This document shows positions 12,774-50,082 of a DNA stretch of 64,000 nt, one piece after another. The number at the start of each line of letters is the position of its first letter. The stretch's first letter is position 1. The position numbers and the translations under genes were made by a program. Source of the DNA: Chaetoderma sp. LZ-2023a (lineage: Eukaryota; Mollusca; Caudofoveata; Chaetodermatida; Chaetodermatidae); NCBI GenBank assembly GCA_034401795.1, contig CM067372.1, positions 16,090,424 to 16,154,423 of the forward strand, read 5' to 3'. Under the pieces are notes generated by a model that ran no database searches, was not told where the DNA came from, and saw only the letters and a list, made by a program, of their open reading frames with translations.

Positions 12774-12812
12774 TAAACGAAATCTAGGATTTCTTTTTTC
12801 ACGAGAGAGTTG

Positions 12813-12988
12813 ATACTTACCTCCATAATATTTTTGATATTGCTAAATATCGGCTTTCACTCAATAAACACTCAGATTAAAACAGTTAGGTGCCCCTACT
12901 GGGCAGGGAGTCAGAGCGTAGTCTGGCGGATGCCAGCCCCACCACCGCGCATGCGCAGACTAGCACTTCCTCTGACTAATTTATTGGC
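12813..12988. repeat. DIRS B left inverted terminal repeat
   Basis: Core repeat of about 176 bp from ATACTTACCTCC to TTATTGGC, the reverse complement of 19623-19799. Outside it are about 38 end-specific bases beginning TAAACGAAATC. Those contain the palindrome GAAATC-TAG-GATTTC (12779-12793). Confidence 0.93.
12946..12957. promoter_or_regulatory. NRF-1-like palindrome in DIRS ITR
   Basis: CGCGCATGCGCA fits the NRF-1 consensus YGCGCAYGCGCR. The same site occurs in the other family 1 repeats (22122-22133, 28774-28785, 33033-33044, 39729-39740) and in a variant form at 2785-2796. Function as a promoter element is inference. Confidence 0.45.
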
Positions 12989-13024
12989 TGATACACATGC
13001 AACTATTAAGAGCCTGAAGACCGA

Positions 13025-13045
13025 GCCTCTGTGGGGTGGAGAGGC
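13025..13045. other. Hairpin beside the ICR (copy B)
   Basis: GCCTCT, a 9-nt loop GTGGGGTGG, then AGAGGC, followed by GGGTCCGTA at 13047-13055. Family 2 has the same structure with GCCTCC/GGAGGC at 42415-42435. The compensating change at one stem pair (T-A to C-G) suggests that the structure itself is conserved. The same hairpin is at 22201-22221 (copy C) and 33112-33132 (copy D). Confidence 0.6.
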
Positions 13046-13060
13046 CGGGTCCGTATCTAG

Positions 13061-13157
13061 GGAGGTAAGTATCAACTCTCTCGTGAAAAAAGAAATCCTA
13101 GATTTCGTTTATTTCACATCAAGAGTATACTTACCTCCCTAATACTTTTGATATTGC
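13061..13157. other. DIRS B internal complementary region (ICR)
   Basis: 13061-13110 is the reverse complement of the left end 12775-12824, and 13111-13157 of the right end (about 19768-19814). Together they give the abutted ends (CGTTT-A-TTTCACATC). In DIRS elements such a region is thought to template completion and circularisation of the cDNA before integration. Copies C and D carry equivalents. Confidence 0.92.
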
Positions 13158-13757
13158 CAGAATTCGACAGTGAATTCGGCGGGAGGGAGGCGAGGTCAAA
13201 AGACCAGCACATCCCTATACGCTTTTCTGCGTTTAAGGCACTTAAACTTCTGAAACTGTATGAAAAAACAGTCAGGATTTGACTAACCATCGGATAACAC
13301 CACCGATGTATGAGAGATGACCGAATGTCATATGCGCTCCCCCCCCCCTCCTTCCTGGGAGGAAGAGTCGAATGACCTCAATGTCCTATACGCTCTCTAC
13401 GTACAAGTGCCATGTACTACAGGACAGAGACGAAAAAACTCCATTTTCGTATACTCTCAACAATGAACCACATAAATACACAAAACCATCATCATATTAA
13501 TAACGGGTAACGTGACAAGACAATCAACAATGGACAACTCATACACAAGACTGACCTTGTTGAAATGGCTGCTGACATCCTCTTCCCATTGGTGAAGAAC
13601 GATGCAGTCCCAAAAAAGTGGTTGTTTCCATCAATTAATTGTGAAATATATAAGCAATGAGGAAACCCCATCAAAAATATAAGCCTAGTTATCTTTTCAA
13701 AATCGACAAGGCGAGAGGATTAGAGGTGTCACGGAGATAATGGTCTGTAAAACTTGA

Positions 13758-14822
13758 CTAACAGTGCCACTGAGCCACCGACATAATATCATCCACAGGG
13801 ACCCCATTAAATAGGGCAGTGGATGTCACTACGCCGCGGACACTGTGAGCCTTGGCCACGTCAACCTGCTTCCCGGTGGCGGATTTATGACAAAACTGAA
13901 TGCATTCTACAATCCACCTGGAAATGGTGTCCTTAGAAGCCCTGCCATGGGGTTCAATATATGACAACCATAACGCCGACTGGTCGGTGCGCCACTCCGA
14001 TGTACGTTGTTTGTACCGGAGAAGTGCCCGGACGGGACACCATGCTTTAGAATTAGGATCATATCTAGTTAAAGCAGGCAAAACAATAGGTTGACCTGGA
14101 TATTTCAATGACTGATTCTTAGCCAAGAAATTAATCCTAGGTAGCAGCTTAAGGCCTTCCCCTGAAACCACAAAACGGTCATCCTCGGCTGATAAGGCAT
14201 GAATTTCACTTCTACGCCTAGCCGAGGCCGCAGCAATTAAAAACACAGTCTTCAGTGTTAATAGTTTCATAGAAATGCAACTAAGTGGTTCAAACGGCTT
14301 ATCACCTAGTCCTTGAAGCACTAGCGATAAACTCCAAGACGGAATCACAGGGGGATTCGTTGGTCTTAGATTGCCCATGCCTTTAATTAATACATTTAAT
14401 GTATTTACTTCATCACTTCCCCTCTTAGCCAAGCAAGGAATAACAGGCATTAAAGCTGACTTATAACCAGCAATAGAGTTAGGCTTGAGGATATAGGCAT
14501 CATACAGGTGACAGAGGAAATCAGCTACTACCTGAATAGATGAATCCATTGGATCAATACATCTTTTTGAGCACCATTCTGCAAATCTGTTGATTTTATA
14601 ATTATATGCTCTGGAGGTTGACCCCCTCCTGGCTTTGGCCATAAACATGGCTGCTTGCTCAGAAAAGCCCTCCTTAATTCTAGATTCCTTGACAACATCC
14701 ACGCAGTCAATCTGAACATTGACGGATTGTTGTGAAGGGCCTTGCCCTGGAAGATAATATCGTCCATCAGAGGCAGAGGAACCGGATTGCAGACCAGAAG
14801 GTCCAGCAGATCCGTATACCAT
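13758..14822 (-). pseudogene. DIRS B tyrosine recombinase, truncated before catalytic Tyr
   Basis: Integrase of the lambda-type YR fold that would insert circular DIRS DNA. The start is taken at the ATG at 14822 (MVYGSAGPSG), which overlaps the end of the RT ORF by about 295 nt; another start is possible. Arg I lies in SARRRSEIHAL and the HxxR box in HSVRG. A TAG directly after AQWHC replaces the GAG of copy D, so the last 23 residues, including the catalytic Tyr of FTDHYL, are missing. The product would be 354 residues and should not cleave DNA. Otherwise the frame is open and close to copies C and D. Confidence 0.9.
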
Positions 14823-16534
14823 GATCGGCTTGGCCAATCCGGGGCGATCAGAAGCACTTGGCATTCCTCTTGTCTGATTTTCTGAAGAATTTTTGGAATC
14901 AGGATTGCTGGAGGGAATGCGTATGCATACATTCTCCCCCAGCTGATAGCTAACGCATCTGTTGCGAAAGCGCTTGGATCCGGAATCGGAGAGACGTACG
15001 TCGTCATCTTCGCATTCTTCTTCGTTGCGAACAAATCGATATTGGGTTTCCCCCAATGGTCGAACAGACGATCCGCCACACATTGATTTAGTTGCCATTC
15101 CGTGGGTAAAACACTCATCCTTCGGGTCAATGAGTCTGCTAGCAGATTTAACCTTCCCGGAATATGAACTGCCTTCAAGGTGATCCCATGATCTAGGCAC
15201 CAACAAAGCAGTCTCCATGTCATCATACAGAGACTGGGCGACTTCGTTCCGCCCTGGCGGTTTATGTAAGTCACAACTGTTGAGTTGTCTGAACGAATAA
15301 GAACAATCTTGCCCTGAACTTTCTGTAAGAAATGTTCCAGGCCCAGGACTACTGCTCTTAGCTCCAGTAGATTTATATGTTCCTTTGACTGTTCCGGATT
15401 CCAAAGCCCTGATATCGTGGATTCTTCCAGACAAGCTCCCCAGCCCTCCATCGATGCATCTGTATACACACTCACCTGAGGGTGGGGAGGGGTTAGCATA
15501 ACCCCCACCAAGAGATTCTCTGTGTCCAACCACCATTGCAGGTGATGAATCAGAGGCGCCAACACTGACACGTTCGAGTCCAGCGAACCTGTACTCTGGG
15601 TCCATTGTGTCATGAGAAATAACTGGATCGGCCGCCTGCGTAAGGCGGCCTGAGGAATGACTGGTTCCAATGAAACCATCAACCCCAGCATTCTCAAGTA
15701 AACCCGTGCCAGGACATGACGACTGTCGCACACTGACTGAATTAATGAGATGAGTTTCTGAACTCTCTCCTGAGTAGGAAAAACATATCCTGTCTCTAGA
15801 TCGAAGAACATCCCCAGGTAAACAAACTTCTGGGATGGAGTCAGCTCTGATTTTGGGAAATTGATCATCCAGCCCAAGTCTGTGAGAGTCTTCAAAACAA
15901 TCTCCAGACTGGCCGATAAACTTTCCTGGGTGTGCGCTTTCAACAGCCAGTCGTCTATGTACGTGTGGACTGCTATGCTTCTCCTGCTGAGGTATGCGGT
16001 GATCGCAAGAACCACACGGGTGAAAACCCGAGGAGCCGTGGAAATTCCGAAGGGTAACACCCTGAATTCCCACTGTCTGCCCTGGAATGCAAATCTCAGG
16101 AAGCGACGGAAACTCCTGTGTATGGGGATGTGGAAATAAGCGTCCTTCAAATCGATCGATGCTGTCCACATTCCCCTCTCTAACCCCGCCAACACCGAGC
16201 ACACAGTCTCCATCTTGAAACTGGGCGTCTCTATGAACTTGTTCAATGGCTTGAGGTTGAGAATTGGTCTCCACCCTCCGGTGTTTTTTGTTACTAAGAA
16301 CAGGGTTGAATAGAAGCCCGGACACCTCTGTGCCGGCTGAGTAGCTCCTTTTTGTATGAGGGAATTTATTTCCTCCTCGATACACAACCTTTGCTCTGGA
16401 TCTCTCGGATTTGGAGTCCAGATCGGCACTAGAGACAGTCGCGATGGCAGGCCTGTCATCCAATCGGGATGATACCCGACTGAAAGCCATCGCAAGACTA
16501 AACGGTCCTGAGTTAACCGTTCCCACTCTTGCAT
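14528..16534 (-). CDS. DIRS B reverse transcriptase-RNase H polyprotein
   Basis: Open frame of 668 residues from the ATG at 16534 (MQEWERLTQD), the first Met in this frame downstream of the Gag end; the frame itself is open further upstream to 16984. RT: SIDLKDAYFHIP with catalytic Asp near 128-131, LPFG at 160-163, and YIDD at 192-195. RNase H: Asp359 in VYTDASMEGWG, Glu391 in NLLELRA, Asp416 in IRSDNSTV, Asp467 in LADSLTRR. The C-terminal region (about 480-620; IDLFATKKNA, DALAISWGRMYAYAFPP) matches the extra domain that follows RNase H in DIRS elements, often described as methyltransferase-like; I see no clear catalytic motif for that. This is the longest RT frame in the window. Confidence 0.92.
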   Translation of the reverse strand: MQEWERLTQDRLVLRWLSVGYHPDWMTGLPSRLSLVPIWTPNPRDPEQRLCIEEEINSLIQKGATQPAQRCPGFYSTLFLVTKNTGGWRPILNLKPLNKFIETPSFKMETVCSVLAGLERGMWTASIDLKDAYFHIPIHRSFRRFLRFAFQGRQWEFRVLPFGISTAPRVFTRVVLAITAYLSRRSIAVHTYIDDWLLKAHTQESLSASLEIVLKTLTDLGWMINFPKSELTPSQKFVYLGMFFDLETGYVFPTQERVQKLISLIQSVCDSRHVLARVYLRMLGLMVSLEPVIPQAALRRRPIQLFLMTQWTQSTGSLDSNVSVLAPLIHHLQWWLDTENLLVGVMLTPPHPQVSVYTDASMEGWGACLEESTISGLWNPEQSKEHINLLELRAVVLGLEHFLQKVQGKIVLIRSDNSTVVTYINRQGGTKSPSLCMMTWRLLCWCLDHGITLKAVHIPGRLNLLADSLTRRMSVLPTEWQLNQCVADRLFDHWGKPNIDLFATKKNAKMTTYVSPIPDPSAFATDALAISWGRMYAYAFPPAILIPKILQKIRQEECQVLLIAPDWPSRSWYTDLLDLLVCNPVPLPLMDDIIFQGKALHNNPSMFRLTAWMLSRNLELRRAFLSKQPCLWPKPGGGQPPEHIIIKSTDLQNGAQKDVLIQWIHLFR

Positions 16535-16658
16535 GTGGTCGGCTAGCCGGCCTCCCACCGGTCCACCTAGGGATAGAGGTGGACATAAGGAGTGCAAGAG
16601 CGGCACTGTCTCCTTTGCCAGAAACACCGGAGCGGTTCTCACCGCGGTAACCGTCCCA

Positions 16659-18713
16659 TCAGGAACGATTACCCCGCCCAGATCCTCGCGCGCCACGACC
16701 AGCACCGCGCGCACCTCGGTGCGCGGGCGGCTGCCTGGCTGACTGCGCCTGAGGAGCCTGCGCACCCCTCGCTGCTGGCCGAATCGCACGCGGCCGAGGC
16801 CGACGCTGCGATGGTGGTTGGCCTCTGACCTGGCCACCACCACCTCGAGCCTGCAGGGGACGATACGCAGGGGGTGCGGCACGAACGTTAGCACGACGAA
16901 GCACCTCAAACTGCTCGCGCAGCGCCCTCTGGTTATTGACCAGAGTAACCGTCTCCTGAAGGTGCCTACATCCCTCACCTCCAAAGAGACCAGGACCTGT
17001 CATAGGTTACGCAGTAGCCTATTGTACAGGTCCTGGGACGGGCACAGATTGTCCAAGGCAAATGTGCGCCTTGCCCGGACACTCCTGGTCACCGCCCGCG
17101 TCATACAGTCCAGAGCCAGGTTGATACCATCCTGGATGGCTCGCTGGACTGTGACCGGACTTGGCTGGCACGATGCGGATGCTGTTACTACCCCTTGTAA
17201 TAGCTGGGAGACGTGGGACAGAGCGGCAATCGAAGCCCTCCCACTCTCCTCCGCATCACGCAACGCGGTATTTGCTGAACGCAACGCGTTCGAACACAAG
17301 ACTCCCGTGTCAGAACGGGAGCCTGGCCGCGCATCCTCACCCAAAGCCGCGCGGTCATCCACGCTCGGCTTAGGTACCACACCGTACCGCTGGTAATCCA
17401 GGGGCACGATGCGGCAACGCCTGGCCACCTCGCGCGGGGCCTTAGCGAGACGTCCACTCGATTTAATGGACGTCTCCGCCGCCTCGAACATGTCAACGAC
17501 ATGCTCTGCCACCGGCAGAGAAGGCATAGCGTTAGCAGTAGGCTTACCAGCTAACCACGGCCTGTGATCACGCTGGCTAGCCGACTGCTCCACGGGCAGA
17601 TCTGGTCTAACACTCACCAACCACTGGCAAGCGTCAGACCAATCCTCCTCCGTGGCTAGCTGCGAGCGCTCTACAAGACGGGGGCCTTCGTCTTCCTCCT
17701 GAGCGCAAGCAACAGAGCTTAACGGCGGATACGCTGATATCCCTGGCAAGCCAGGGAGAGCATGCGGGCCTGATAACACCGGCATGCTAATCTCACTGGC
17801 TTGACCAGGAGCAGGCGCCGTGGTAGAGCGCGGGGCATATACCGCCCCACCACGGCCCCGGCCAGCACCAGCGACACTCTCGGCAAGCCGAGGTATGCGG
17901 TAACGCTGGCCCTCAGCGCCCAGGGCCACAGTCTGAACCGTGGATCCTACCCCTGGGAGAGTAGAACCGTGGAATAAGTCGCCTGTATTCCCCGCGAGGG
18001 GTGCACAGGCGTCATAATCCATGGCCACGTCCTCAGACGGCGACCCCAACAGGTAATCCTCATCCTCCTGGCCAGACAGATTAGACTCCGGGTCAGCAAA
18101 GAGAGCTAACCCGGACTGGCCAGGGAAGGTGCCATACGAGGTACTGGCACCCGCGGCGTGCGGATACCCCTGGACTGATAAGCAGCCCGCGGGTTCCAGC
18201 GACAACCGTCCACGGTCCCTATTCGGCGCGGCACTAAGCCTGCTGCCAGGGTCGTGGAACGCCCCCTCTAATGGGGCCACCTCTGAATCTTCGAACAACG
18301 GAAGCGTACTAAGGAAAGGTGATTCAGAGGTGGGGATTACCTGCTCCGAAGCAGATGATGAGGCCAGCAAAGGATTTGGTCCAGGAAGCATGCCACGAAG
18401 CAACTCTGGAACCAAATCCTTTATTGTCCTCCTCATCTCTCCTAACATCTCGGTCCGGAAGGCCTCCATGTCCACCACGGACGAGGCCTTCCTCTTACCC
18501 TTCTTACTCACAACCTCTCTTTTCTGCTTCTTCTTGTCCTCCTCCACCACCTTGTCCTTCGCCTGCAAGCACAAGAATTCGGACATTAGCTCGCCCCCCC
18601 CAGTGCTTACATATCTCGCAATTAAGCAAGGGACCACAGGGGCTACACTGATAACAGAGATGAGGCACAAACTTGTCCTTCAAAAACCGTCCACAAGACG
18701 CACAACCAGGTCT
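16659..18713 (-). pseudogene. DIRS B Gag-like ORF1, two frameshifts
   Basis: Two open pieces cover it: 17000-18670 (556 codons) and 16659-17003 (114 codons). A one-base loss plus a substitution near 17006 (GGTTACGC against GGCGTACGC in copy D) separates them. A C8 run at 18594-18601 (C7 in copies C and D) throws the N-terminal Cys cluster out of frame. Conserved blocks include APREVARRCRIVPLDYQRYG, QRAIQDGINLALDC, GPGLFGGEGC and a C-terminal Arg/Gly tail (GARGAGRGARGSGRG). The tail suggests RNA binding. Confidence 0.88.
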
Positions 18714-18864
18714 CTGAAACAGGGCAAAGGACGAGGAGTATGAGCAATCTAGTTAAGCTCAGAAACTCACCAACTCAAGAGAAGGAAATGATCATACAGA
18801 TCAATATTAATCAGAAAACCAGCTTCGGACAACTTTAATTGTTAATAAAGAGCAAGGCTGATTA

Positions 18865-18872
18865 TGACGTCA
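18865..18872. promoter_or_regulatory. Palindromic CRE in family 1 leader
   Basis: TGACGTCA, the full CREB/ATF site, in the 5' leader of copy B. It is kept in copies C (27989-27996) and D (38936-38943) and mutated in A. Family 2 copy E has the same octamer in its leader at 49434-49441. A role in transcription is inference. Confidence 0.5.
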
Positions 18873-19622
18873 TTAATCCTATGACAGGAAAAAATCGATC
18901 CCCAACAAACATCCAAGTGCAAGGACGAATTGTATCTCTAACCAGAACATGTGCAGAATGGACATTTCGACTACACAACCATCAGATATATACTGATAAC
19001 AATGGCAAATACTGTTAATTATCTCCCTTTCCTCTAAATAATTAACATCACCTCATATCAATAATTAGATACCTGACACCTTGTATAGACAAACCATCCA
19101 ACGTGATGAACTGGAGCACTCCACCAACTGAACGCCTCTTAACTCTCTCCACCTCTAGGGGAAGGAATTGGATCAAGAGGGCAAAGTGAGAAGACCTTTA
19201 TACTAGGCCTCCGACTCACTGGACATAAAATTTTTGGTTAGATAACCTAACAGTATTAGTAGGAAATGGAACCATGGTGGAGAGAAACAAACCCCCTGCT
19301 GATGTGATGTCCATTACATGTCGTCTCACAGACCTGTGGACATAAACACAAAGAGAGATTAGTATGATATAGCACCTAGTTGAAATAAACCAACTAAACA
19401 AGGCGCTTATCACGGTAAGCGCGAGTCCCGGAAACACATTACAGCGGGGACAAAACTCGCTAATTTTACTAGAAGTCACCTGATTTAAAGGTCCTGGGCC
19501 CTCCTCTGGCGAAGTCATCCTTCCTGCCATCTTTATCAGGGATAAACACTTCCAAATTTTCACAAAAACACTAAGAATTGAGCGAAGAAAAGCACTAGCA
19601 CAAAAACATGTGTAGACTCTCT

Positions 19623-19799
19623 GCCAATAAATTAGCAAAGAGGAAGTGCTAGTCTGCGCATGCGCGGTGGTGGGGCTGGCATCCGCCAGACTACGCTCTG
19701 ACTCCCTGCCCAGTAAGGGCACCTAACTGTTTTAATCTGAGTGTTTATTGAGTGAAAGCCGATATTTAGCAATATCAAAAGTATTAGGGAGGTAAGTAT
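19623..19799. repeat. DIRS B right inverted terminal repeat
   Basis: About 177 bp, the reverse complement of 12813-12988. It contains the TGCGCATGCGCG palindrome (19655-19666) and ends in GGAGGTAAGTAT. Beyond it are about 14 end-specific bases (ACTCTTGATGTGAA) and then host minisatellite. Confidence 0.93.
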
Positions 19800-19814
19800 A
19801 CTCTTGATGTGAAA

Positions 19815-21949: not shown

Positions 21950-21988
21950 TAAACGAAATCAAGGATTTCTTTTTTCACGAGAGAGTTG

Positions 21989-22164
21989 ATACTTACCTCC
22001 CTAATACTTTTGATATTGCTAAATATTGGCTTTCACTCAATAAACACTCAGATTAAAACAGTTAGGTGCCCCTACTGGGCAGGGAGTCAGAGCGTAGTCT
22101 GGCAGATGCCAGCCCCACCACCGCGCATGCGCAGACTAGCACTTCCTCTGACTAATTTATTGGT
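21989..22164. repeat. DIRS C left inverted terminal repeat
   Basis: Reverse complement of 28742-28918. Outside it the end reads TAAACGAAATCAAGGATTTC, which keeps the GAAATC-N3-GATTTC palindrome with a different centre (AAG) from copy B (TAG). Confidence 0.92.
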
Positions 22165-22236
22165 TGATACACATGCAACTATAAAGAGCCTGAAGACCGA
22201 GCCTCTGTGGGGTGGAGAGGCCGGGTCCGTATCTAG

Positions 22237-22333
22237 GGAGGTAAGTATCAACTCTCTCGTGAAAAAAGAAATCCTTGATTTCGTTTATTTCACATCAAGA
22301 GTATACTTACCTCCCTAATACTTTTGATATTGC
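22237..22333. other. DIRS C internal complementary region
   Basis: Complementary to both element ends, as in copy B. It carries the end-specific variant CCTTGATTTC that matches copy C's own left end (AAGG), not copy B's. The ICR and terminus of each copy therefore agree with each other. The conserved hairpin GCCTCT-N9-AGAGGC precedes it at 22201-22221. Confidence 0.9.
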
Positions 22334-22863
22334 CAGAATTCGACAGTGAATTCGGCGGGAGGGAGGCGAGGTCAAAAGACCAGCTCATCCCCATACGCTT
22401 TTCTGCGTTTAAGGCACTTAAACTTCTGAAACTGTATGAAAAAAAAGTCAGGATTTGACTAACCATCGGATAACACCCCCGATGTATGAGAGATGACCGA
22501 ATGTCATATGCGCTCCCCCCCCCTCCTTCCTGGGAGGAAGAGTCGAATGACCTCAATGTCCTATACGCTCTCTACGTACAAGTGCCATGTACTACAGGAC
22601 AGAGACGAAAAAACTCCATTTTCGTATACTCTCAACAATGAACCACATAAATACACAAAACCATCATCATATTAATAACGGGTAACGTGACAAGACAATC
22701 AACAATGGACAACACATACACAAGACTGACCTTGTTGAAATGGCTGCTGACATCCTCTTCCCATTGGTGAAGAACGATGTAGTCCCAAATTAGTGGTTGT
22801 TTCCATAAATTAATTGTGAAATATATAAGCAATGAGGAAACCCCATCAAAAATATATGCCTAG

Positions 22864-23850
22864 TTATTTTTTCAAAATCGACAAGGCGAGAGGATTAGAG
22901 GTGTCACGGAGATAATGGTCTGTAAAACTTGACTCACAGTGCCACTGAGCCACCGACATAATATCATCCACAGGGACCCCATTAAATAGGGCAGTGGATG
23001 TCACTACGCCGCGGACACTGTGAGCCTTGGCCACGTCAACCTGCTTCCCGGTGGCGGATTTATGGCAAAACTGAATGCATTCTACAATCAACCTGGAAAT
23101 GGTGTCCTTAGAAGCCCTGCCATGGGGTTCAATATAAGACAACCATAACGCCGACTGGTCGGTGCGCCACTCCGCCGTACGTTGTTTGTACCGGCGAAGT
23201 GCCCGGACGGGACACCATGCTTTAGAATTAGGATCATATCTAGTTAAAGCAGGCAAAACAATAGGTTGACCTGGATATTTCAACGACTGATTTTTAGCCA
23301 AGAAATTAATCCTAGGTAGCAGCTTAAGGCCTTCCCCTGAAACCACAAAACGGTCATCCTCGGCTGATAAGGCATGAATTTCACTTAAAAACACAGTCTT
23401 CAGTGTTAATAGTTTCATAGAAATGGAACTAAGTGGTTCAAACGGCTTATCACCTAGTACTTGAAGCACTAGCGATAAACTCCAAGACGGAATCACAGGT
23501 GGATTCCTTGGTCTTAGATTGCCCATGCCTTTAATTAATACATTTAATGTATTTACTTCATCACTTCCCCTCTTAGCCAAGCAAGGAATAACAGACATTA
23601 AAGCTGACTTATAACCAGCAATAGAGTTAGGCTTGAGGCTATAGGCATCATAGAGGTGACAGAGGAAATCAGCTACTACCTGAATAGATGAATCCATTGG
23701 ATCAATACATCTTTTTGAGCACCATTCTGCAAATCTGTTGATTTTATAATTATATGCTCTGGAGGTTGACCCCCTCCTGGCTTTGGCCATAAACATGGCT
23801 GCTTGCTCAGAAAAGCCCTCCTTAATTCTAGATTCCTTGACGACATCCAC
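22864..23850 (-). pseudogene. DIRS C tyrosine recombinase lacking Arg I segment
   Basis: Open frame of 328 residues from MDVVKESRIK. The C-terminal boxes are present: HSVRG, AQWHC and the Tyr of FTDHYL. A 27-nt in-frame deletion removes nine residues (IAAASARRR) before SEIHAL, so VFL joins directly to SEIHAL. The deleted part carries the first catalytic arginine of the YR family. The frame looks intact to an ORF finder, but the enzyme should be inactive. The ATG at 23850 arises from a substitution; copies B and D have Val there and probably start upstream. Confidence 0.88.
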
Positions 23851-23914
23851 GCAGTCAATCTGAACATTGACGGATTGTTGTGAAGGGCCTTGCCCTGGAA
23901 GATAATATCGTCCA

Positions 23915-25660
23915 TCAGAGGCAGAGGAACCGGATTGCAGACCAGAAGGTCCAGCTTGGCCAATCCGGGGCGATCAGAAGCACTTGGCATTCCTCTTGTC
24001 TGATTTTCTGAAGAATTTTTGGAATCAGGATTGCTGGAGGGAATGCGTATGCATACATTCTCCCCCAGCTGATAGCTAACGCATCTGTTGCGAAAGCGCT
24101 TGGATCCGGAATCGGAGAGACGTACGTCGTCATCTTCGCATTCTTCTTCGTTGCGAACAAATCGATGTTGGGTTTCCCCCAATGGTCGAACAGACGATCC
24201 GCCACACATTGATTTAGTTGCCATTCTGTGGGTAAAACACTCATCCTTCGGCTCAATGAGTCTGCTAGCAGATTTAACCTTCCCGGAATATGAACTGCTT
24301 TCAAGGTAATCTGGTGATCCAGACACCAACAAAGCAGTCTCCATGTCATCATACAGAGACTGGGCGACTTCGTTCCGCCCTGGCGGTTTATGTAAGTCAC
24401 AACTGTTGAGTTGTCTGAACGAATAAGAACAATCTTGCCCTGAACTTTCTGTAAGAAATGTTCCAGGCCCAGGACTACTGCTCTTAGCTCCAGTAGATTT
24501 ATATGTTCCTTTGACTGTTCCAGATCCCAAAGCCCTGATATCGTGGACTCTTCCAGGCAAGCTCCCCAGCCCTCCATCGATGCATCTGTATACACAGTCA
24601 CCTGAGGGTGGGGAGGGGTTAGCATAACCCCCACCAAGAGATTCTCTGTGTCCAACCACCATTGCAGGAGATGAATCAGAGGCGCCAACACTGACACATT
24701 CGAGTCCAGGGAACCTGTACTCTGGGTCCATTGTGTCATGAGAAATAACTGGATCGGCTGCCTGCGTAAGGCGGCCTGAGGAATGACTGGTTCCAATGAA
24801 ACCATCAATCCCAGCATTCTCAAGTAAACCCGTGCCAGGACATGACGACTGTCGCACACTGACTGAATTAATGAGATGAGTTTCTGAACTCTCTCCTGAG
24901 TAGGATAAACATATCCTGTCTCTAGATCGAAGAACATCCCCAGGTAAACAAACTTCTGGGATGGAATCAGCTCTGATTTTGGGAAATTGATCATCCAGCC
25001 TAAGTCTGTGAGAGTTTTCAAAACAATCTCCAGACTGGCCGATAAACTTTCCCGGGTGTGTGCTTTCAACAGCCAGTCGTCTATGTACGTGTGGACTGCT
25101 ATGCTTCTCCTACGGAGGTATGCGGTGATCGCAAGAACCACATGGGTGAAAACCCGAGGAGCCGTGGAAATTCCGAAGGGTAGCACCCTGAATTCCCACT
25201 GTCTGCCCTGGAATGCAAATCTCAGGAAGCGACGGAAACTCCTGTGTATGGGGATGTGGAAATAAGCGTCCTTCAAATCTATCGACGCTGTCCACATTCC
25301 CCTCTCTAACCCCGCCAACACCGAGCGCACAGTCTCCATCTTGAAACTGGGCGTCTCTATGAACTTGTTCAATGGCTTGAGGTTGAGAATTGGTCTCCAC
25401 CCTCCGGTGTTCTTTGTTACTAAGAACAGGGTTGAATAGAAGCCCGGACACCTCTGTGCCGGCTGAATAGCTCCTTTTTGTATGAGGGAATTTATTTCCT
25501 CCTCGATACACAACCTTTGATCTGGATCTCTCGGATTTGGAGTCCAGATCGGCACTAGAGACAGTCGCGATGGCGGGCCTGTCATCCAATCGGGATGATA
25601 CCCGACTGAAAGCCATCGCAAGACTAAACGGTCCTGAGTTAACCGTTCCCACTCTTGCAT
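23915..25660 (-). pseudogene. DIRS C RT-RNase H, frameshifted near the C-terminus
   Basis: The RT and RNase H portions are open and carry SIDLKDAYFHIP, YIDDWLL, VYTDASMEGWG, IRSDNSTV and LADSLSRR. A 22-nt deletion near 23956 (present in copies B and D as the stretch containing ATCCGTATACCATGATCGG) shifts the frame inside the post-RNase H domain, and the frame ends at 23915. The lost C-terminal part continues in another frame (24857-23676). The polymerase core might still fold, but the C-terminal domain is replaced. Confidence 0.88.
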
Positions 25661-25784
25661 GTGGTCGGCTAGCCGGCCTCCCACCGGTCCACCTAGGGAT
25701 AGAGGTGGACATAAGGAGTGCAAGAGCGGCACTGTCTCCTTTGCCAGAAACACCGGCGTGGTTCTCACCGCGGTAACCGTCCCA

Positions 25785-27805
25785 TCAGGAACGATTACCC
25801 CGCCCAGATCCTCGCGCGCCACGACCAGCACCGCGCGCACCTCGGTGCGCGGGCGGCTGCCTGGCTGACTGCGCCTGAGGAGCCTGCGCCCCCCTCGCTG
25901 TTGGCCGAATCGCACGCGGCCGAGGCCGACGCTGCGATGGTGGTTGGCCTCTGACCTGGCCACTACCACCTCGAGCCTGCAGGGGACGATACGCAGGGGG
26001 TGCGGCGCGAATGTTGGCACGACGAAGCACCTCAAACTGCTCGCGCAGCGCCCTCTGGTTATTGACCAGAGTAACCGTCTCCTGGAGGTGCCTACATCTC
26101 TCACCTCCAAAGAGACCAGGACCTGTCATAGGCGTACGTAGTAGCCTATTGTATAGGTCCTGGGACGGGCACAGATTATCCAAGGCAAAAGTGCGCCTTG
26201 CCCGGACACTCCTGGTCACCGCCCGCATCATACAGTCCAGCGCCAGGTTGATACCATCCTGGATGGCTCGCTGGACTGTGACCGGACTTGGCTGGCGCGA
26301 TGCGGATGCTGTTACTACCCCTTGTAACAGCTGGGAGACGTGGGACAGAGCGGCAATCGAAGCCCTCCCACTCTCCTCCGCATCACGCAACGCGGTATTT
26401 GCTGAACGCAACGCGTTCGAACACAAGACTCCCGTGTCAGAACGGGAGCCTGGCCGCGCATCCTCACCCAAAGCCGCGCGGTCATCCACGCTCGGCTTAG
26501 GTACCACACCGTACCGCTGGTAGTCCAGGGGCACGATGCGGCAACGCCTGGCCACCTCGCGCGGGGCCTTAGCGAGACGTCCACTAGACTTAATGGACGT
26601 CTCCGCCGCCTCGAACATGTCAACGACATGCTCTGCCAGCGGCAGAGAAGGCATAGCGTTAGCAGTAGGCTTACCAGCTAACCACGGCCTGTGATCACGC
26701 TGGCTAGCCGACTGCTCCACGGGCAGATCTGGTCTAACACTCACCAACCACTGGCAAGCGTCAGACCAATCCTCCTCCGTGGCTAGCTGCGAGCGCTCTA
26801 CAAGACGGGGGCCTTCGTCTTCCTCCTGAGCGCAAGCAACAGAGCTTGACGGCGGATACGCTGATATCCCTGGCAAGCCAGGGAGAGCATGCGGGCCTGA
26901 CAATACCGGCATGCTAATCTCACTGGCTTGACCAGGAGCAGGTGCCGTGGTAGAGCGCGGGGCATATACCGCCCCACCACGGCCCCGGCCAGCACCAGCG
27001 ACACTCTCGGCAAGCCGAGGTATGCGGTAACGCTGGCCTTCAGCGCCCAGGGCCACAGTCTGAACCGTGGATTCTACCCCTGGGAGAGTAGAACCGTGGA
27101 ATAAGGCGCCTGTATTCCCCGCGAGGGGTGCACAGACGTCATAATCCATGGCCACGTCTTCAGACGGTGACCCCAACAGGTAATCCTCATCCTCCTGGCC
27201 AGACAGATTAGACTCCGGGTCAGCAAAGAGAGCTAACCCGGACTGGCCAGGGAAGGTGCCATACGAGGTACTGGCACCCGTGGTGTGCGGATAGCCGTGG
27301 ACTGATAAGCAGCCCGCGGGTTCCAGCGACAACCGTCCATGGTCCCTATTGGGCGCGGCAATAAGCCTGCTGCCAGGGTCGTGGAACGCCCCCTCTAATG
27401 AGCCACCTCTGAATCTTCAAACAACGGAAGCGTACTAAGGAACGGTGATTCAGAGGCGGGGATTACCTGCTCCGAAGCAGATGATGGGGCCAATAAAGGA
27501 TTTGGTCCAGGAAGCATGCCACGAAGCAACTCTGGAACCAAATCCTTGATTGTCCTCCTCATCTCTCCCAACATCTCGGTCCGGAAGGCCTCCATGTCCA
27601 CCGCGGACGAGGCCTTCCTCTTACCCTTCTTACTTACAACCTCTTTTTTCAGCTTCTTCTTCTCCTCCTCCACCTTGTCCTTCGCCTGCAAGCACAAGAA
27701 TTCGGACATTAGCTCGCCCCCCCAGTGCTTACATATCTCGCAATTAAGCAAGGGACCACAGGGGCTACACTGAAAACAGAGATGAGGACCAAACTTGTCC
27801 CTCAA
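25785..27805 (-). pseudogene. DIRS C Gag-like ORF1, one frameshift
   Basis: Two open parts: 27395-27805 (136 codons, including the Cys cluster HLCFQCSPCG, NCEICKHWG) and 25785-27332 (515 codons, to the Arg/Gly tail). They are separated by a one-base loss near 27398 (AATGAGCC against AATGGGGCC in copy D). The rest matches copy D closely. Removal of this single defect is all that distinguishes the frame from an open Gag. Confidence 0.88.
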
Positions 27806-28741
27806 AAATCGTCCACAGGACGCACAACCAGGTCTCTGAAAAAAGCCAAAGGATGAGGAGTATGAGCAATCTAGTTAAGCTTAGAAACTCACCAACTCAA
27901 GAGAAGGAAAAATGATCATAAAGATCATAATTTATCAGAAAACCAGCTTCGGACAACTTTAATTGTTAATAAAGAGCAAGGCTGATTATGACGTCATTAA
28001 TCCTATGACAGGAAAAAATCGATCCCCAACAAACATCCCAGTGCAAGGACGAATTGTATCTCTAACCAGAACATGTGCAGAATGGACATTTCGACTACAC
28101 AACCATCAGATATATACTGATAACAATGGCAAATACTGTTAATTATCTCCCTTTCCTCTAAATAATTAACATCACCTCATATCAATAATTAGATACCTGA
28201 CACCTTGTCTAGACAAACCATCCAACCTGATGAACTGGAGTACTCCACCACTGAACGCCTCAACTCTCTCCACCTCTAGGGGAAGGAATTGGACAAGAGG
28301 GCAAAGTGAGAAGACCTTTATAATAGGCCTCCAACTCACTGGACATAGAATTTTTGGTTAGATAACCTAACAGTATTAGTAGGAAATGGAACCATGGTGG
28401 AGAGACACAAACCCTCTGCTGATGTGATGTCCATTTTATTTCTTCACACAGACCTGTGGACATAAACACAAAGAGAGATTAGTCTTATATAGCACCTAGT
28501 TGAAATAAACCAACTAACCAAGGCGCTTATCACGTTTAGCGCGAGTCCCGGAAACACATTACAACGGGACAAAACTCGCTAATTTTACTAGAAGTCACCT
28601 GATTTAAAGGTCCTGGGCCTTCCTCTGGCGAAGTCACTCTTCCTGCCATCTTTATCAGGGATAAACACTTCTTATCTTTCACAAAAACACTTAGAATTGA
28701 GCCACGAAAAGCACTAGCACAAAAGCATGTGTAGACTCTCT

Positions 28742-28918
28742 GCCAATAAATTAGCAAAGAGGTAGTGCTAGTCTGCGCATGCGCGGTGGTGGGGCTGGCA
28801 TCCGCCAGACTACGCTCTGACTCCCTGCCCAGTAGGGGCACCTAACTGTTTTAATCTGAGTGTTTATTGAGTGAAAGCCAATATTTAGCAATATCAAAAG
28901 TATTAGGGAGGTAAGTAT
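28742..28918. repeat. DIRS C right inverted terminal repeat
   Basis: From GCCAATAA to GTAAGTAT, the reverse complement of 21989-22164, with TGCGCATGCGCG at 28774-28785. The element ends GATGTGAA at 28932. Confidence 0.92.
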
Positions 28919-28933
28919 ACTCTTGATGTGAAA

Positions 28934-29273
28934 TTGACACTTTTGGTTGAATTTTCTACAAAATCAGGCAGTTAATGAGGAAATATGTTTTGAAACTTTT
29001 GGGTAATTATTTTGGATAAAACCTAAGATTTTTTACCCAAAAAATTGATCAATCAAAAATTTGAAGAGGTTTTAGAGCCTACCACTATATGGTCCTTCCA
29101 GAAAATTTAGTTGAAATCTGTCATGAAGCGAAGGAGGAGATGCATTTTGACACTTTTCGGTAACTTTTTTACAAAATCTAAGATTTTCACCAAAAAAATC
29201 GACCAAAATTTGAATAGAAGATCTAGAACCTACATCCATACAATGCTTCCATTCTGGCCAGGTGAGCTAACAA
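28934..29273. repeat. Tandem 155-160-bp repeat element, copy 1 right part
   Basis: Resumes after DIRS C with about two units (GATCAATCAAAAATTTGAAG, CTAAGATTTTCACCAAAAAA) and closes with CATTCTGGCCAGGTGAGCTAA, the same terminus as the copy ending at 52498. Confidence 0.82.
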
Positions 29274-32862: not shown

Positions 32863-32899
32863 TAAACGAAATCAAGGATTTCTTTTTTCACAAGAGTTG

Positions 32900-33075
32900 A
32901 TACTTACCTCCCTAATACTTTTGATATTGCTAAATATTGGCTTTCACTCAATAAACACTCAGATTAAAACAGTTAGGTGCCCCTACTGGGCAGGGAGTCA
33001 GAGCGTAGTCTGGCGGATGCCAGCCCCACCACTGCGCATGCGCAGACTAGCACTTCCTCTGACTAATTTATTGGC
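32900..33075. repeat. DIRS D left inverted terminal repeat
   Basis: From ATACTTACC to TTATTGGC, the reverse complement of 39697-39873, with TGCGCATGCGCA (33033-33044). Relative to copies B and C the outer end has lost a few bases (CACAAGAGTTG for CACGAGAGAGTTG), yet the ICR keeps the longer form. Confidence 0.92.
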
Positions 33076-33147
33076 TGATACACATGCAACTATAAAGAGC
33101 CTGAAGACCGAGCCTCTGTGGGGTGGAGAGGCTGTGTCCGTATCTAG

Positions 33148-33244
33148 GGAGGTAAGTATCAACTCTCTCGTGAAAAAAGAAATCCTTGATTTCGTTTATT
33201 TCACATCAAGAGTATACTTACCTCCCTAATACTTTTGATATTGC
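33148..33244. other. DIRS D internal complementary region
   Basis: Complementary to both ends. It still reads CAACTCTCTCGTG although the D left terminus has been shortened, so the terminus changed after insertion. The hairpin GCCTCT-N9-AGAGGC is at 33112-33132; the following motif is mutated to GTGTCCGTA. Confidence 0.9.
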
Positions 33245-33772
33245 CAGAATTCGACAGTGAATTCGGCGGGAGGGAGGCGAGGTCAAAAGACCAGCTCATC
33301 CCTATACGCTTTTCTGCGTTTAAGGCACTTAAACTTCCGAAACTGTATGAAAAAACAGTCAGGATTTCACTAACCATCGGATAACACCCCCGATGTATGA
33401 GAGCTGACCGAATGTCATATGCGCTCCCCCCCCCCTTCCTGGGAGGAAGAGTCGAATGACCTCAATGTCCTATACGCTCTCTACGTACAAGTGCCATGTA
33501 CTACAGGACAGAGACGAAAAAACTCCATTTTCGTATACTCTCAACAATGAACCACATAAATACACAAAACCATCATCATATTAATAACGGGTAACGTGAC
33601 AAGACAATCAACAATGGACAACACATACACAAGACTGACCTTGTTGAAATGGCTGCTGACATCCTCTTCCCATTGGTGAAGCACGATGCAGTCCCAAATT
33701 AGTGGTTGTTTCCATAAATTAATTGTGAAATATATAAGCAATGAGGAAACCCCATCAAAAATATATGCCAAG

Positions 33773-34906
33773 TTATTTTTTCAAAATCGACAAGGCGAGA
33801 GGATTAGAGGTGTCACGGAGATAATGGTCTGTAAAACTTGACTCACAGTGCCACTGAGCCACCGACATAATATCATCCACCGGGACCCCATTAAATAGGG
33901 CCGTGGATGTCACTACGCCGCGGACACTGTGAGCCTTGGCCACGTCAACCTGCTTCCCGGTGGCGGATTTATGACAAAACTGAATGCATTCTACAATCCA
34001 CCTGGAAATGGTGTCCTTAGAAGCCCTGCCATGGGGTTCAATATATGACAACCGTAACGCCGACTGGTCAGTGCGCCACTCCGCCGTACGTTGTTTGTAC
34101 CGGCAAAGCGCCCGGACGGGACACCATGCTTTAGAATTAGGATCATATCTAGTCAAAGCAGGCAAAACAATAGGTTGACCTGGATATTTCAACGACTGAT
34201 TTTTAGCCAAGAAATTAATCCTAGGTAGCAGCTTAAGGCCTTCCCCTGAAACCACAAAACGGTCATCCTCGGCTGATAAGGCATGAATTTCACTCCTACG
34301 CCTAGCCGAGGCCGCAGCAATTAAAAACACAGTCTTCAGTGTTAATAGTTTCATAGAAATGGAACTAAGTGGTTCAAACGGCTTATCACCTAGTACTTGA
34401 AGCACTAGCGATAAACTCCAAGACGGAATCACAGGTGGATTCCTTGGTCTTAGATTGCCCATGCCTCTAATTAATACATTTAATGTATTTACTTCATCAC
34501 TTCCCCTCTTAGCCAAGCAAGGAATAACAGACATTAAAGCTGACTTATAAGCAGCAATAGAGTTAGGCTTGAGGCTATAGGCATCATAGAGGTGACAGAG
34601 GAAATCAGCTACTACCTGAATAGATGAATCCATTGGATCAATACATCTTTTTGAGCACCATTCTGCAAATCTGTTGATTTTATAATTATATGCTCTGGAG
34701 GTTGACCCCCTCCTGGCTATGGCCATAAACATGGCTGCTTGCTCAGAAAAGCCCTCCTTAATTCTAGATTCCTTGACAACATCCACGCAGTCAATCTGAA
34801 CATTGACGGATTGTTGTGAAGGGCCTTGCCCTGGAAGATAATATCGTCCATCAGAGGCAGAGGAACCGGATTGCAGACCAGAAGGTCCAGCAGATCCGTA
34901 TACCAT
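33773..34906 (-). CDS. DIRS D tyrosine recombinase, intact
   Basis: Open frame of 377 residues from the ATG at 34906 (MVYGSAGPSG); the same frame runs open further upstream as a shadow of RT. Catalytic set of the YR family: Arg in ARRRSE (about 202-204), His326 and Arg329 in HSVRG, His353 in AQWHC, Tyr362 in FTDHYL. The N-terminal part (about 45-160) resembles a SAM-like core-binding domain (RAYNYKINRFAEW). It overlaps the RT frame by 190 nt here. The protein would insert circular DIRS cDNA; it is the only family 1 YR in the window with every key residue. It could act in trans on copies B and C. Confidence 0.93.
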   Translation of the reverse strand: MVYGSAGPSGLQSGSSASDGRYYLPGQGPSQQSVNVQIDCVDVVKESRIKEGFSEQAAMFMAIARRGSTSRAYNYKINRFAEWCSKRCIDPMDSSIQVVADFLCHLYDAYSLKPNSIAAYKSALMSVIPCLAKRGSDEVNTLNVLIRGMGNLRPRNPPVIPSWSLSLVLQVLGDKPFEPLSSISMKLLTLKTVFLIAAASARRRSEIHALSAEDDRFVVSGEGLKLLPRINFLAKNQSLKYPGQPIVLPALTRYDPNSKAWCPVRALCRYKQRTAEWRTDQSALRLSYIEPHGRASKDTISRWIVECIQFCHKSATGKQVDVAKAHSVRGVVTSTALFNGVPVDDIMSVAQWHCESSFTDHYLRDTSNPLALSILKK

Positions 34907-36615
34907 GATCGGCTTGGCCAATCCGGGGCGATCAGAAGCACTTGGCATTCCTCTTGTCTGATTTTCTGAAGAATTTTTGGAATCAGGATTGCTGGAGGGA
35001 ATGCGTATGCATACATTCTCCCCCAGCTGATAGCTAACGCATCTGTTGCGAAAGCGCTTGGATCCGGAATCGGAGAGACGTACGTCATCTTCGCATTCTT
35101 CTTCGTTGCGAACAAATCGATGTCGGGTTTCCCCCAATGGTCGAACAGACGATCCGCCACACATTGATTTAGTTGCCATTCCGTGGGTAAAACACTCATC
35201 CTTCGGCTCAATGAGTCTGCTAGCAGATTTAACCTTCCCGGAATATGAACTGCTTTCAAGGTAATCTGGTGATCCAGACACCAACAAAGCAGTCTCCATG
35301 TCATCATACAGAGACTGGGCGACTTCGTTCCGCCCTGGCGGTTTATGTAAGTCACAACTGTTGAGTTGTCTGAACGAATAAGAACAATCTTGCCCTGAAC
35401 TTTCTGTAAGAAATGTTCCAGGCCCAGGACTACTGCTCTTAGCTCCAGTAGATTTATATGTTCCTTTGACTGTTCCAGATTCCAAAGCCCTGATATCGTG
35501 GACTCTTCCAGGCAAGCTCCCCAGCCCTCCATCGATGCATCTGTATACACAGTCACCTGAGGGTGGGGAGGGGTTAGCATAACCCCCACCAAGAGATTCT
35601 CTGTGTCCAACCACCATTGCAGGTGATGAATCAGAGGCGCCAACACTAGCACATTCGAGTCCAGCGAACCTGTACTCTGGGTCCATTGTGTCATGAGAAA
35701 TAACTGGATCGGCCGCCTGCGTAAGGCGGCCTGAGGAATGACTGGTTCCAATGAAACCATCAACCCCAGCATTCTCAAGTAAACCCGTGCCAGGACATGA
35801 CGACTGTCGCACACTGACTGAATTAATGAGATGAGTTTCTGAACTCTCTCCTGAGTAGGATAAACATATCCTATCTCTAGATCGAAGAACATCCCCAGGT
35901 AAACAAACTTCTGGGATGGAATCAGCTCTGATTTTGGGAAATTGATCATCCAGCCTAAGTCTGTGAGAGTTTTCAAAACAATCTCCAGACTGGCCGATAA
36001 ACTTTCCCGGGTGTGCACTTTCAACAGCCAGTCGTCTATGTACGTGTGGACTGCTATGCTTCTCCTGCGGAGGTATGCGGTGATCGCAAGAACTACACGG
36101 GTGAAAACCCGAGGAGCCATGGAAATTCCGAAGGGTAGCACCCTGAATTCCCACTGTCTGCCCTGGAATGCAAATCTCAGGAAGCGACGGAAACTCCTGT
36201 GTATGGGGATGTGGAAATAAGCGTCCTTCAAATCTATCGACGCTGTCCACATTCCCCTCTCTAACCCCGCCAACACCGAGCGCACAGTCTCCATCTTGAA
36301 ACTGGGCGTCTCTATGAACTTGTTCAATGGCTTGAGGTTGAGAATTGGTCTCCACCCTCCGGTGTTTTTTGTTACTAAGAACAGGGTTGAATAGAAGCCG
36401 GGACACCTCTGTGCCGGCTGAATAGCTCCTTTTTGTATGAGGGAATTTATTTCCTCCTCGATACACAACCTTTGATCTGGATCTCTCGGATTTGGAGTCC
36501 AGATCGGCACTAGAGACAGTCGCGATGGCGGGCCTGTCATCCAATCGGGATGATACCCGACTGAAAGCCATCGCAAGACTAAACGGTCCTGAGTTAACCG
36601 TTCCCACTCTTGCAT
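34717..36615 (-). CDS. DIRS D RT-RNase H, stop codon 35 residues early
   Basis: 632 residues from the ATG at 36615, 125 bp downstream of the Gag stop. The RT (SIDLKDAYFHIP, LPFG, YIDDWLL) and RNase H residues (VYTDASM, NLLELRA, IRSDNSTV, LADSLSRR) are present. Relative to copy B one Thr codon is missing in AKMTYVSP, and a TAG follows QPCLWP, removing 35 C-terminal residues. The same base change is only Lys to Ile in the overlapping YR frame (MFMAIARR). The polymerase and RNase H are probably unaffected; whether the tail matters is unknown. Confidence 0.9.
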   Translation of the reverse strand: MQEWERLTQDRLVLRWLSVGYHPDWMTGPPSRLSLVPIWTPNPRDPDQRLCIEEEINSLIQKGAIQPAQRCPGFYSTLFLVTKNTGGWRPILNLKPLNKFIETPSFKMETVRSVLAGLERGMWTASIDLKDAYFHIPIHRSFRRFLRFAFQGRQWEFRVLPFGISMAPRVFTRVVLAITAYLRRRSIAVHTYIDDWLLKVHTRESLSASLEIVLKTLTDLGWMINFPKSELIPSQKFVYLGMFFDLEIGYVYPTQERVQKLISLIQSVCDSRHVLARVYLRMLGLMVSLEPVIPQAALRRRPIQLFLMTQWTQSTGSLDSNVLVLAPLIHHLQWWLDTENLLVGVMLTPPHPQVTVYTDASMEGWGACLEESTISGLWNLEQSKEHINLLELRAVVLGLEHFLQKVQGKIVLIRSDNSTVVTYINRQGGTKSPSLCMMTWRLLCWCLDHQITLKAVHIPGRLNLLADSLSRRMSVLPTEWQLNQCVADRLFDHWGKPDIDLFATKKNAKMTYVSPIPDPSAFATDALAISWGRMYAYAFPPAILIPKILQKIRQEECQVLLIAPDWPSRSWYTDLLDLLVCNPVPLPLMDDIIFQGKALHNNPSMFRLTAWMLSRNLELRRAFLSKQPCLWP

Positions 36616-36739
36616 GTGGTCGGCTAGCCAGCCTCCCACCGGTCCACCTAGGGATAGAGGTGGACATAAGGAGTGCAAGAGCGGCACTGTCTCCTCTGCC
36701 AGAAACACCGGCGCGGTTCTCACCGCGGTAACCGTCCCA

Positions 36740-38752: not shown

Positions 38753-38935
38753 AAACCGTCCACAGGACGCACAACCAGGTCTCTGAAACAGGGCAAAGGA
38801 CGAGGAGTATGAGCAATCTAGTTAAGCTCAGAAACTCAACCAACTCAAGAGAAGGAAATGATCATAAAGATCAATATTCATCAGAAAACCAGCTTTGGAC
38901 AAACTTTAATTGTTAATAAAGAGCAAGGCTGATTA

Positions 38936-38943
38936 TGACGTCA
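38936..38943. promoter_or_regulatory. Palindromic CRE in DIRS D leader
   Basis: TGACGTCA in the leader of the most intact copy, at the same place as in B and C (within GATTATGACGTCATTAATCC). Confidence 0.5.
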
Positions 38944-39696
38944 TTAATCCTATGACAGGAAAAAATCGATCCCCAACAAACATCCAAGTGCAAGGACGAA
39001 TTGTATCTCTAACCAGAACATGTGCAGAATGGACATTTCGCCTACACAACCATCAGATATATACTGATAACAATGGCAAATACTGTTAATTATCTCCCTT
39101 TCCTCTCTAAATAATTAACATCACCTCATATCAATAATTAGATACCTGACACTTTGTATAGACAAACCATCCAACGTGATGAACTGGAGCACTCCACCAA
39201 CTGAACGCCGCTTAACTCTCTCCACCTATAGGGGAAGGAATTGGATCAAGAGGGCAAAGTGAGAAGACCTTTATACTAGGCCGCCGACTCACTGGACATA
39301 AAATTTTTGGTTAGATAACCTAACAGTATTAGTAGGAAATGGAACCATGGTGGAGAGAAACAAACCCTCTGCTGATGTGATGTCCATTACATATCGTCAC
39401 ACAGACCTGTGGACATAAACACAAAGAGAGATTAGTATTATATAGCACCTAGTTGAAATAAACCAACTAAACAAGGCGCTTATCACGGTAAACGCGAGTC
39501 CCGGAAACACATTACACCGGGGAAAAAAACTCGCTAATTTTACTAGTAGTCACCTGATTTAAAGGTCCTGGGCCCTCCTCTGGCGAAGTCATCCTTTCTG
39601 CCATCTTTATCAGGGATAATCACTTCCAAATTCACACAAAAAGACTATAAATTGAGTAAAGAAAAGCTCTAGCACAAAAACATGTGTAGACTCTCT

Positions 39697-39873
39697 GCCA
39701 ATAAATTAGCAAAGAGGAAGTGCTAGTCTGCGCATGCGCGGTGGTGGGGCTGGCATCCGCCAGACTACGCTCTGACTCCCTGCCCAGTAGGGGCACCTAA
39801 CTGTTTTAATCTGAGTGTTTATTGAGTGAAAGCCGATATTTAGCAATATCAAAAATATTAGGGAGGTAAGTAT
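39697..39873. repeat. DIRS D right inverted terminal repeat
   Basis: Partner of 32900-33075. Contains TGCGCATGCGCG (39729-39740) and GGAGGTAAGTAT near its end. Confidence 0.92.
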
Positions 39874-39887
39874 ACTCTTGATGTTAA

Positions 39888-42010: not shown

Positions 42011-42231
42011 TTGACTATTTTGAAACAAATTTGACTAGAATCTGTGGCTGCCATAGGCATCAACAGGTACCTGGCAAATTAATTTAAAAATACTCACTAA
42101 AATATTCCTAACATCAAAAAGAATGTGTGGTTTTTTATCTGTAACAGTTAAAGCAAGTAATTCACTGCAGTAAGCAGTTGGCGGGATATCAAAATGCAGG
42201 AAATTTCAATTTCCCTTTCTCCGAGATCTAA

Positions 42232-42387
42232 CAATACTCACCATTCTGTTACTTTCTGATACACAGCTGGCCTTGACAGCTGGCTCTAGGACTATAGACT
42301 TAGAAAGCTTTACCGACTCCTTGGAACCAGGTACTCGGCTCCCAACCGCCGAGTACCCGTCTACCAGAGCTCATATTGTTTGCATAG
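42232..42387. repeat. DIRS E left inverted terminal repeat with internal hairpin
   Basis: About 156 bp, the reverse complement of 49817-49975. It holds a perfect hairpin GGTACTCGGC-TCCCAACC-GCCGAGTACC at 42330-42357. The outer end has the palindrome GGAAAT-TTCA-ATTTCC at about 42199-42214. Confidence 0.92.
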
Positions 42388-42414
42388 CCACCAAACAAGA
42401 GAAAACACTGGCTT

Positions 42415-42435: not shown

Positions 42436-42442
42436 TGGGTCC

Positions 42443-49975: not shown

Positions 49976-50082
49976 ATCGAATGAGAATGGTGGTTCTCTA
50001 AGACTTGTCATCTTATGTCCATACCTCCTAACCGTAACTTTAATGACTAAATTTTAACAAGAATATTGAAATATTTGCTTAG

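Follow-up and report, generated by a model that had tools for sequence, protein, structure and literature searches.

A conserved block of 31 nucleotides, which begins at the edge of the right internal complementary region (ICR) and ends in a small hairpin, was found in two families of DIRS1-like elements. Four elements had their 3' end in the window, that is, in the whole 64-kb stretch of DNA that was analysed, and all four carried the block. Its position, its fixed spacing from the ICR, its conservation far above that of saturated sites in the two families and its capability of forming a 6-bp hairpin were observed directly. We proposed that the block is a cis-acting DIRS signal at the right-ICR edge, which would act in the sense RNA or cDNA and would be read by a protein of the element. 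A probability of about 0.4 was assigned to this reading.

The host elements had been taken for DIRS type in the sequence-only reading, and this was borne out by a match to RT, by weaker matches to RNase H and a recombinase, and by inverted termini and a two-part ICR. By the features tested, the elements are DIRS1-like. Family 1 (F1) was represented by copies A, B and C (identity of 97.2% for A and C and 96.6% for A and B) and family 2 (F2) by a single element. The long frames of copy C comprised an RT frame, a frame with a tyrosine recombinase (YR) in its 3' part and a third frame without a Pfam match. The RT of copy C matched RVT_1 of Pfam (E 9.1e-23, 81.5 bits), and its RNase H matched RT_RNaseH at E 1.1e-4 with 22.8 bits, under the cut-off of 24.8. 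The recombinase of F2 matched Phage_int_SAM_1 (E 5e-5, 23.9 bits, over the cut-off of 22.3), and that of F1 copy C gave a Pfam match below the cut-off only (E 0.0014-0.0016). No Pfam match was obtained with the whole 987-aa recombinase frame of copy C, and no PDB sequence match with the copy C recombinase at E 0.1. The residues RRRSE, HxVRG, WH and Y were common to both families in the recombinase alignment, and we take them to be the catalytic pattern of tyrosine recombinases. A methyltransferase domain after the RT and RNase H gave no Pfam match at E 0.001 in the RT frame of copy C. This RT frame had a long overlap with the open 988-codon YR frame (33773-37017); for the mollusc elements of PMC3266345 no long overlap is reported.

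The inverted terminal repeats (ITRs) agreed at 93% over 200 columns in copy A and at 96% over 163 columns in F2. All four elements had two ICRs, one complementary to the outer left end and one to the outer right end, which meet at the circular junction; in F2 the two halves overlapped at CATT. Since the halves are the complements of two inverted repeats, the ICR is an imperfect palindrome. Copy A was flanked by a 52-bp tandem array (window positions 12410-12773 and 19815-20010). When its flanks were joined, the phase of the array was restored at zero offset (81/90, vs 60-76 at four other offsets), so no target duplication was made, as judged for copy A only. The coordinates of the features are collected in Table 1.

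Table 1. Positions of the DIRS1-like elements, their ICRs and the conserved blocks in the window
Feature	Positions	Strand	Remarks
DIRS1-like element, F1 copy A	12774..19814	-	inside 52-bp tandem array, without target duplication
DIRS1-like element, F1 copy B	21950..28934	-	edges from ICR-terminus alignments
DIRS1-like element, F1 copy C	32863..39888	-	three long open frames; edges approximate
DIRS1-like element, F2	42193..49989	-	frames interrupted, LINE-like RT insert; edges approximate
Tyrosine recombinase region, copy C	33773..34810	-	ends about 520 bp before the ICR
Right ICR, copy A	13054..13111	-	complementary to right terminus 12774-12830
Left ICR, copy A	13112..13166	-	complementary to left terminus 19760-19814
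Right ICR, F2	42443..42502	-	complementary to right terminus 42193-42252
Left ICR, F2	42499..42546	-	complementary to left terminus 49942-49989
Conserved block, F1 copy A	13025..13055	-	hairpin 13025-13045
Conserved block, F1 copy B	22201..22231	-	hairpin 22201-22221
Conserved block, F1 copy C	33112..33142	-	hairpin 33112-33132; flank differs, GGACACA
Conserved block, F2	42415..42445	-	hairpin 42415-42435

Several further features of the window were recorded. A LINE-like RT frame, recognized by eye within F2 (47582-48595), matched RVT_1 at E 1.8e-6 with 28.3 bits, under the Pfam cut-off of 29.6, and is probably a nested insertion. An F2-like relic (54668-61226) consisted of three pieces that were 66-76% identical to F2 and was without recognisable termini, and a partial element (1-2946) had its 3' end cut off by the window edge; hence neither of them yields a third hairpin. 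A 6-kb tandem array (3773-9863) had a 40-bp unit and a higher-order period of 318 bp. The ITR of F2 contained a GC-rich hairpin of at least 10 bp, in which GGTACTCGGC pairs with GCCGAGTACC (42330-42357), and the ITR of F1 a longer imperfect GC-rich hairpin closed by TAGTCTG/CAGACTA (12919-12962). The motif GGTRAGTAT (complement ATACTYACC) occurred 17 times in the window, each time inside a terminus or ICR of these elements (2923, 12813, 13064, 13127, 19791, 21989, 22240, 22303, 28910, 32900, 33151, 33214, 39865, 42234, 42453, 42515 and 49965). It resembles a 5' splice site or, on the other strand, the start of U1 snRNA.

The sequence-only reading had placed four hairpins in the window, and all of them were present where it had put them. 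A search with the degenerate 21-mer at up to 3 mismatches returned exactly these 4 matches and no further site elsewhere in the window, when a mean of 0.01 matches was expected from 100 shuffles. The three hairpins of F1 listed in that reading all exist, but their copies are about 97% identical, so that they come close to one observation. All four hairpins and elements lay on the minus strand, where the coding frames are, and the sense hairpin is therefore the reverse complement of the sequence first noted. It consisted of a 6-bp stem and a 9-nt C-rich loop, foldable in both families, the loop being CCACCCCAC in F1 and CAGCCCCAC in F2 on the sense strand.

The conserved unit was larger than the hairpin and comprised the 31 nt that begin at the right-ICR edge. 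On the sense strand it read TACGGACCCRGCCTC-(11 nt)-GAGGC, or TACGGACCCRGCCTC...CCCCACRGAGGC, and in copy A it was laid out as TAC of the ICR edge, GGACCCG and the hairpin. The hairpin had been said to be followed by GGGTCCGTA; this held for copies A, B and F2, while copy C carried the sense flank GGACACA instead of GGACCCR. In all four elements, as had been claimed, the hairpin lay with the right ICR on one side and the right terminal repeat on the other. The stretch over which the right ICR is complementary to the right terminus ended at 13054, 22229, 33140 and 42443 in A, B, C and F2, respectively, and the TAC of the block occupied 13055-13053, 22231-22229, 33142-33140 and 42445-42443. The ICR edge thus fell inside the first three bases of the block, and the hairpin began 7 nt later, in 4/4 elements.

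The conservation of the block was set against the divergence of the two families. The RT fragments of F1 and F2 were 60% identical, and the YR regions of copy C and F2 shared 215/344 amino acids. At fourfold-degenerate YR codon sites only 26/101 agreed between copy C and F2, as in unrelated sequence, so the neutral similarity between F1 and F2 is gone. The block matched F2 at 26/31 positions, ungapped, for each of A, B and C. With neutral sites saturated, a block conserved to this extent is most likely under purifying selection, as judged from two families compared in one window.

Further, the sequence from the right-ICR edge to about the inner edge of the ITR (the gap sequence) was aligned between F1 and F2. 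A score of 38 was obtained, which was equalled by 0/2000 shuffles per copy (null maxima of 27, 31 and 27). When the whole 3' noncoding regions of copy C and F2 were compared, the best match was formed by the block together with the ATACTYACC box (39; the highest score among 300 shuffles was 31). The second, third and fourth matches scored 24, 22 and 20, which is the null level (95th percentile 25, median 21). The surrounding DNA had been described as not otherwise alignable, and this stood for the 3' noncoding DNA of copy C and F2 except for the shared ATACTYACC box of the ICR. In the 5' noncoding DNA of the same pair nothing rose above the null, the best score of 23 being equalled by 94/200 shuffles. 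Among the F1 copies the variable columns numbered 0/21 in the hairpin, 2/31 in the block and 102/956 elsewhere, gap columns included, a divergence too small for a test.

It had also been claimed that one base pair of the stem was changed on both sides, from T-A to C-G. Such a covarying pair appeared in the ungapped alignment of the hairpins, which has 4 substitutions in 21 positions, and was absent from a gapped alignment (a single deletion and a single insertion besides one substitution), where no pair is compensatory. Of 9 scoring schemes tried, 6 gave the gapped alignment the higher score, by 1 to 3 points, and in the other 3 it did not win; the compensatory pair is dependent on which alignment is chosen. 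When 4 random substitutions were simulated (400,000 runs), all pairs were kept in 3.3% of the runs, and kept with a double change in 1.2%.

The formation of a perfect 6-bp hairpin with a loop of 3-12 nt was not rare by itself, being recorded in 7.3% (gap sequence of A) and 14.5% (gap sequence of F2) of 1000 shuffles. The two folds tested have ordinary predicted stability: for the F1 sense RNA a z of -1.73 was calculated, with 10/200 shuffles at least as stable, and for the F2 antisense DNA a z of -0.92, with 37/200 as stable. The predicted pair probabilities of the hairpin were 0.91-1.0 on the sense strand (A, C and F2); on the antisense strand the predicted hairpin probability was 0.99-1.0 in A and C and about 0.6 in F2. 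The model values thus lean slightly towards the sense strand. In the predicted folds of shortened RNAs (A and F2) the ICR formed a long hairpin with the small hairpin alongside. When the right terminus was included (A, C and F2), the right ICR was predicted to pair with it over more than 50 nt and to enclose a loop, in which the small hairpin was the first long stem. A longer lower stem, GGACC with GGTCT, was predicted in F1 for copy A and, in a shorter form, for copy C; F2 had none. A kissing interaction between the loop CCCCAC and a GTGGGG further downstream was also considered; that partner is present in F1 (12937, 22113 and 33024) and absent in F2, and the interaction was rejected as a conserved feature. 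The conservation of the loop and of the unpaired 5' flank as sequence points to recognition of sequence at least as much as of structure.

Other explanations of the block were weighed. It is distinctly unlikely that the hairpin is a polymerase stop of the strong-stop kind, at which a hairpin in the template just past the ICR edge would halt the extension of a first-strand cDNA 3' end annealed to the ICR copy. The hairpin lies directly beyond the ICR edge in the inferred copying direction, at a fixed distance in 4/4 elements, and both families can form a 6-bp stem. For a stop, however, the stem alone would suffice, yet conservation extends to the loop CCCCAC and to the unpaired GGACCC; moreover, a stem of 6 bp would be a weak block, its predicted probability in the template (antisense) strand of F2 is only about 0.6, and a polymerase halted at the stem would already have copied about 7 nucleotides too many. 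Conserved primary sequence of the arms and core would fit with a site in double-stranded DNA, a reading that we regard as unlikely. The site might be the palindromic binding site GCCTC-N11-GAGGC, a CACCC/GT-box with the core GTGGGG for a host transcription factor of the nearby ITR promoter or of antisense transcription, or an accessory site of the recombinase. The LTRs of DIRS-1 are promoters with sense and antisense transcripts according to the accessible part of PMC5633606, which agrees with such a role, but the block is outside the ITR, hence at one end only, and a spacing tied to the ICR edge would be needless for a promoter element.

That the block helps to form the 3' end of the sense RNA, for example through cleavage or stability, was judged very unlikely. 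This RNA may terminate a short way past the block, and F1 has an AATAAA about 40 nt downstream of the hairpin (12980-12985 and the equivalents in B and C). Against this, a second AATAAA of F1 is situated upstream, within the ICR (at 13108 and at the equivalent positions), both AATAAA and ATTAAA are missing from F2 between 900 nt upstream and 400 nt downstream, and no known RNA family was matched at the gathering level. The least probable explanation is that the block has no function and either is a remnant common to both families or passed from one to the other as a short tract. Only two families were seen, both in one cluster of the same genome region; still, the fourfold-degenerate sites are saturated when the block is not, and a recent exchange should have brought alignable flanks, of which none extend beyond the ICR box.

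Known RNAs and relatives of the elements were also searched for. Rfam gave 0 matches at the gathering score in the 64-kb window. Permissive Rfam scans gave 9 and 13 miRNA- or snoRNA-like matches, all far below the cut-offs (best E 0.0044) and centred on the ICR palindrome; a MIR5020 match (13036-13160) overlapped part of a hairpin and a MIR2118 match (42435-42542) touched one by a single base. A delta ribozyme was considered because of a passing likeness of GGACCCAGCCTCC, which we take to resemble it, and was dropped since Rfam gave no support. With regard to tRNA priming, no TGG was found in the conserved sense block; ARAGORN detected no tRNA genes in the window, a result without bearing on priming.

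Searches of viral contigs with the RT and YR proteins or alignments returned 1, 23, 74 and 41 pattern matches with no confirmed relative, and the RT alignment returned 28 matches in prokaryotic genome contigs, again with no confirmed relative. The hairpin pattern had 3 matches in viral contigs, whose 40-nt flanks, compared by eye, shared nothing with the block; a few such matches would, at a guess, be expected by chance. The longer block pattern gave 0 matches in viral contigs and 1 in prokaryotic contigs, in the actinobacterium Catellatospora vulcania, which was taken as chance. The collections scanned were prokaryotic and viral, and the absence of a third family from them says nothing about animals.

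The preferred reading remains that of a signal at the right-ICR edge read by a protein of the element. The hairpin lies between the ICR and the terminal repeat, within the sole noncoding block that stands out between the two families, so that it may plausibly have a role in the RNA or cDNA during replication. It would act in the sense RNA or in the single-stranded cDNA made from it, where the ICR would pair with the outer part of the right terminus, leaving the hairpin about 7 nt beyond the end of the duplex, and a protein of the element (RT, Gag or recombinase) would recognise the loop CCCCAC and the GGACCC flank. Recognition by such a protein is favoured, since conservation of the sequence is not confined to the stem and includes the loop and the unpaired flank. 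The bound protein could mark the start or the stop of the ICR-templated completion of the missing ends. A wider form of this proposal, which we consider unlikely, is that a signal at the right-ICR edge, specific in both sequence and structure and read by the element's own protein, is an undescribed obligatory part of DIRS replication in an entire clade of animal DIRS elements. As part of the same wider form, the signal would set the exact end of the ICR-templated completion or prime the start of cDNA synthesis where the ICR and the terminus have snapped back into a duplex.

In the published view (PMC5633606 and PMC3266345, in their accessible parts), the ends that the RNA lacks are believed to be restored by the ICR, and the rebuilding of DIRS ends from truncated RNA is described in the accessible part of PMC5633606 as a model that is not fully proven. 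The block at the ICR edge offers a concrete place to mutate in that model. Should it hold in further families, the block would add a new component to the model of DIRS end restoration and would be a simple marker of the right-ICR edge for annotation.

The elements resembled the DIRS1-like elements of PMC3266345, as described in the text available, in their inverted termini, in a left and a right ICR that overlap at the circular junction, in the RT/RH and YR frames and in insertion without target duplication. A short sequence common to both ITRs and both ICRs is likewise described there, and GGTRAGTAT may be its counterpart here. F1 measured about 7.0 kb, vs 3974-6283 bp for the 28 elements annotated by Piednoel et al. 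2011 (PMC3266345, accessible text). The main text of PMC3266345 contains no hairpin, stem-loop, stem, secondary structure or palindrom, and no description of a conserved block at the ICR edge was found in its accessible parts. DIRS-1 of Dictyostelium, likened here by description, is similar in that its ICR is believed to supply the termini that its RNA lacks and that its LTRs are inverted and act as promoters; it differs in that no ICR-flanking hairpin is mentioned in the text available, where the sole hairpin concerns Skipper-1 (PMC5633606). The hairpins in the accessible part of PMC8969392 belong to Helitrons, and PMC9210276, PMC2685390 and PMC3783388 contained no hairpin, stem-loop or secondary structure.

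Nothing was found in the open-access literature on DIRS, ICR and secondary structure. The block was not mentioned in the open literature searched, which is no proof of its being unpublished, subscription papers being outside that search. Packaging and primer-site hairpins of other retroelements are small conserved stem-loops next to the place at which copying begins or is transferred. To our knowledge, LTR elements lack an ICR. By analogy, the block would be like those hairpins in its placement and unlike them in adjoining an ICR.
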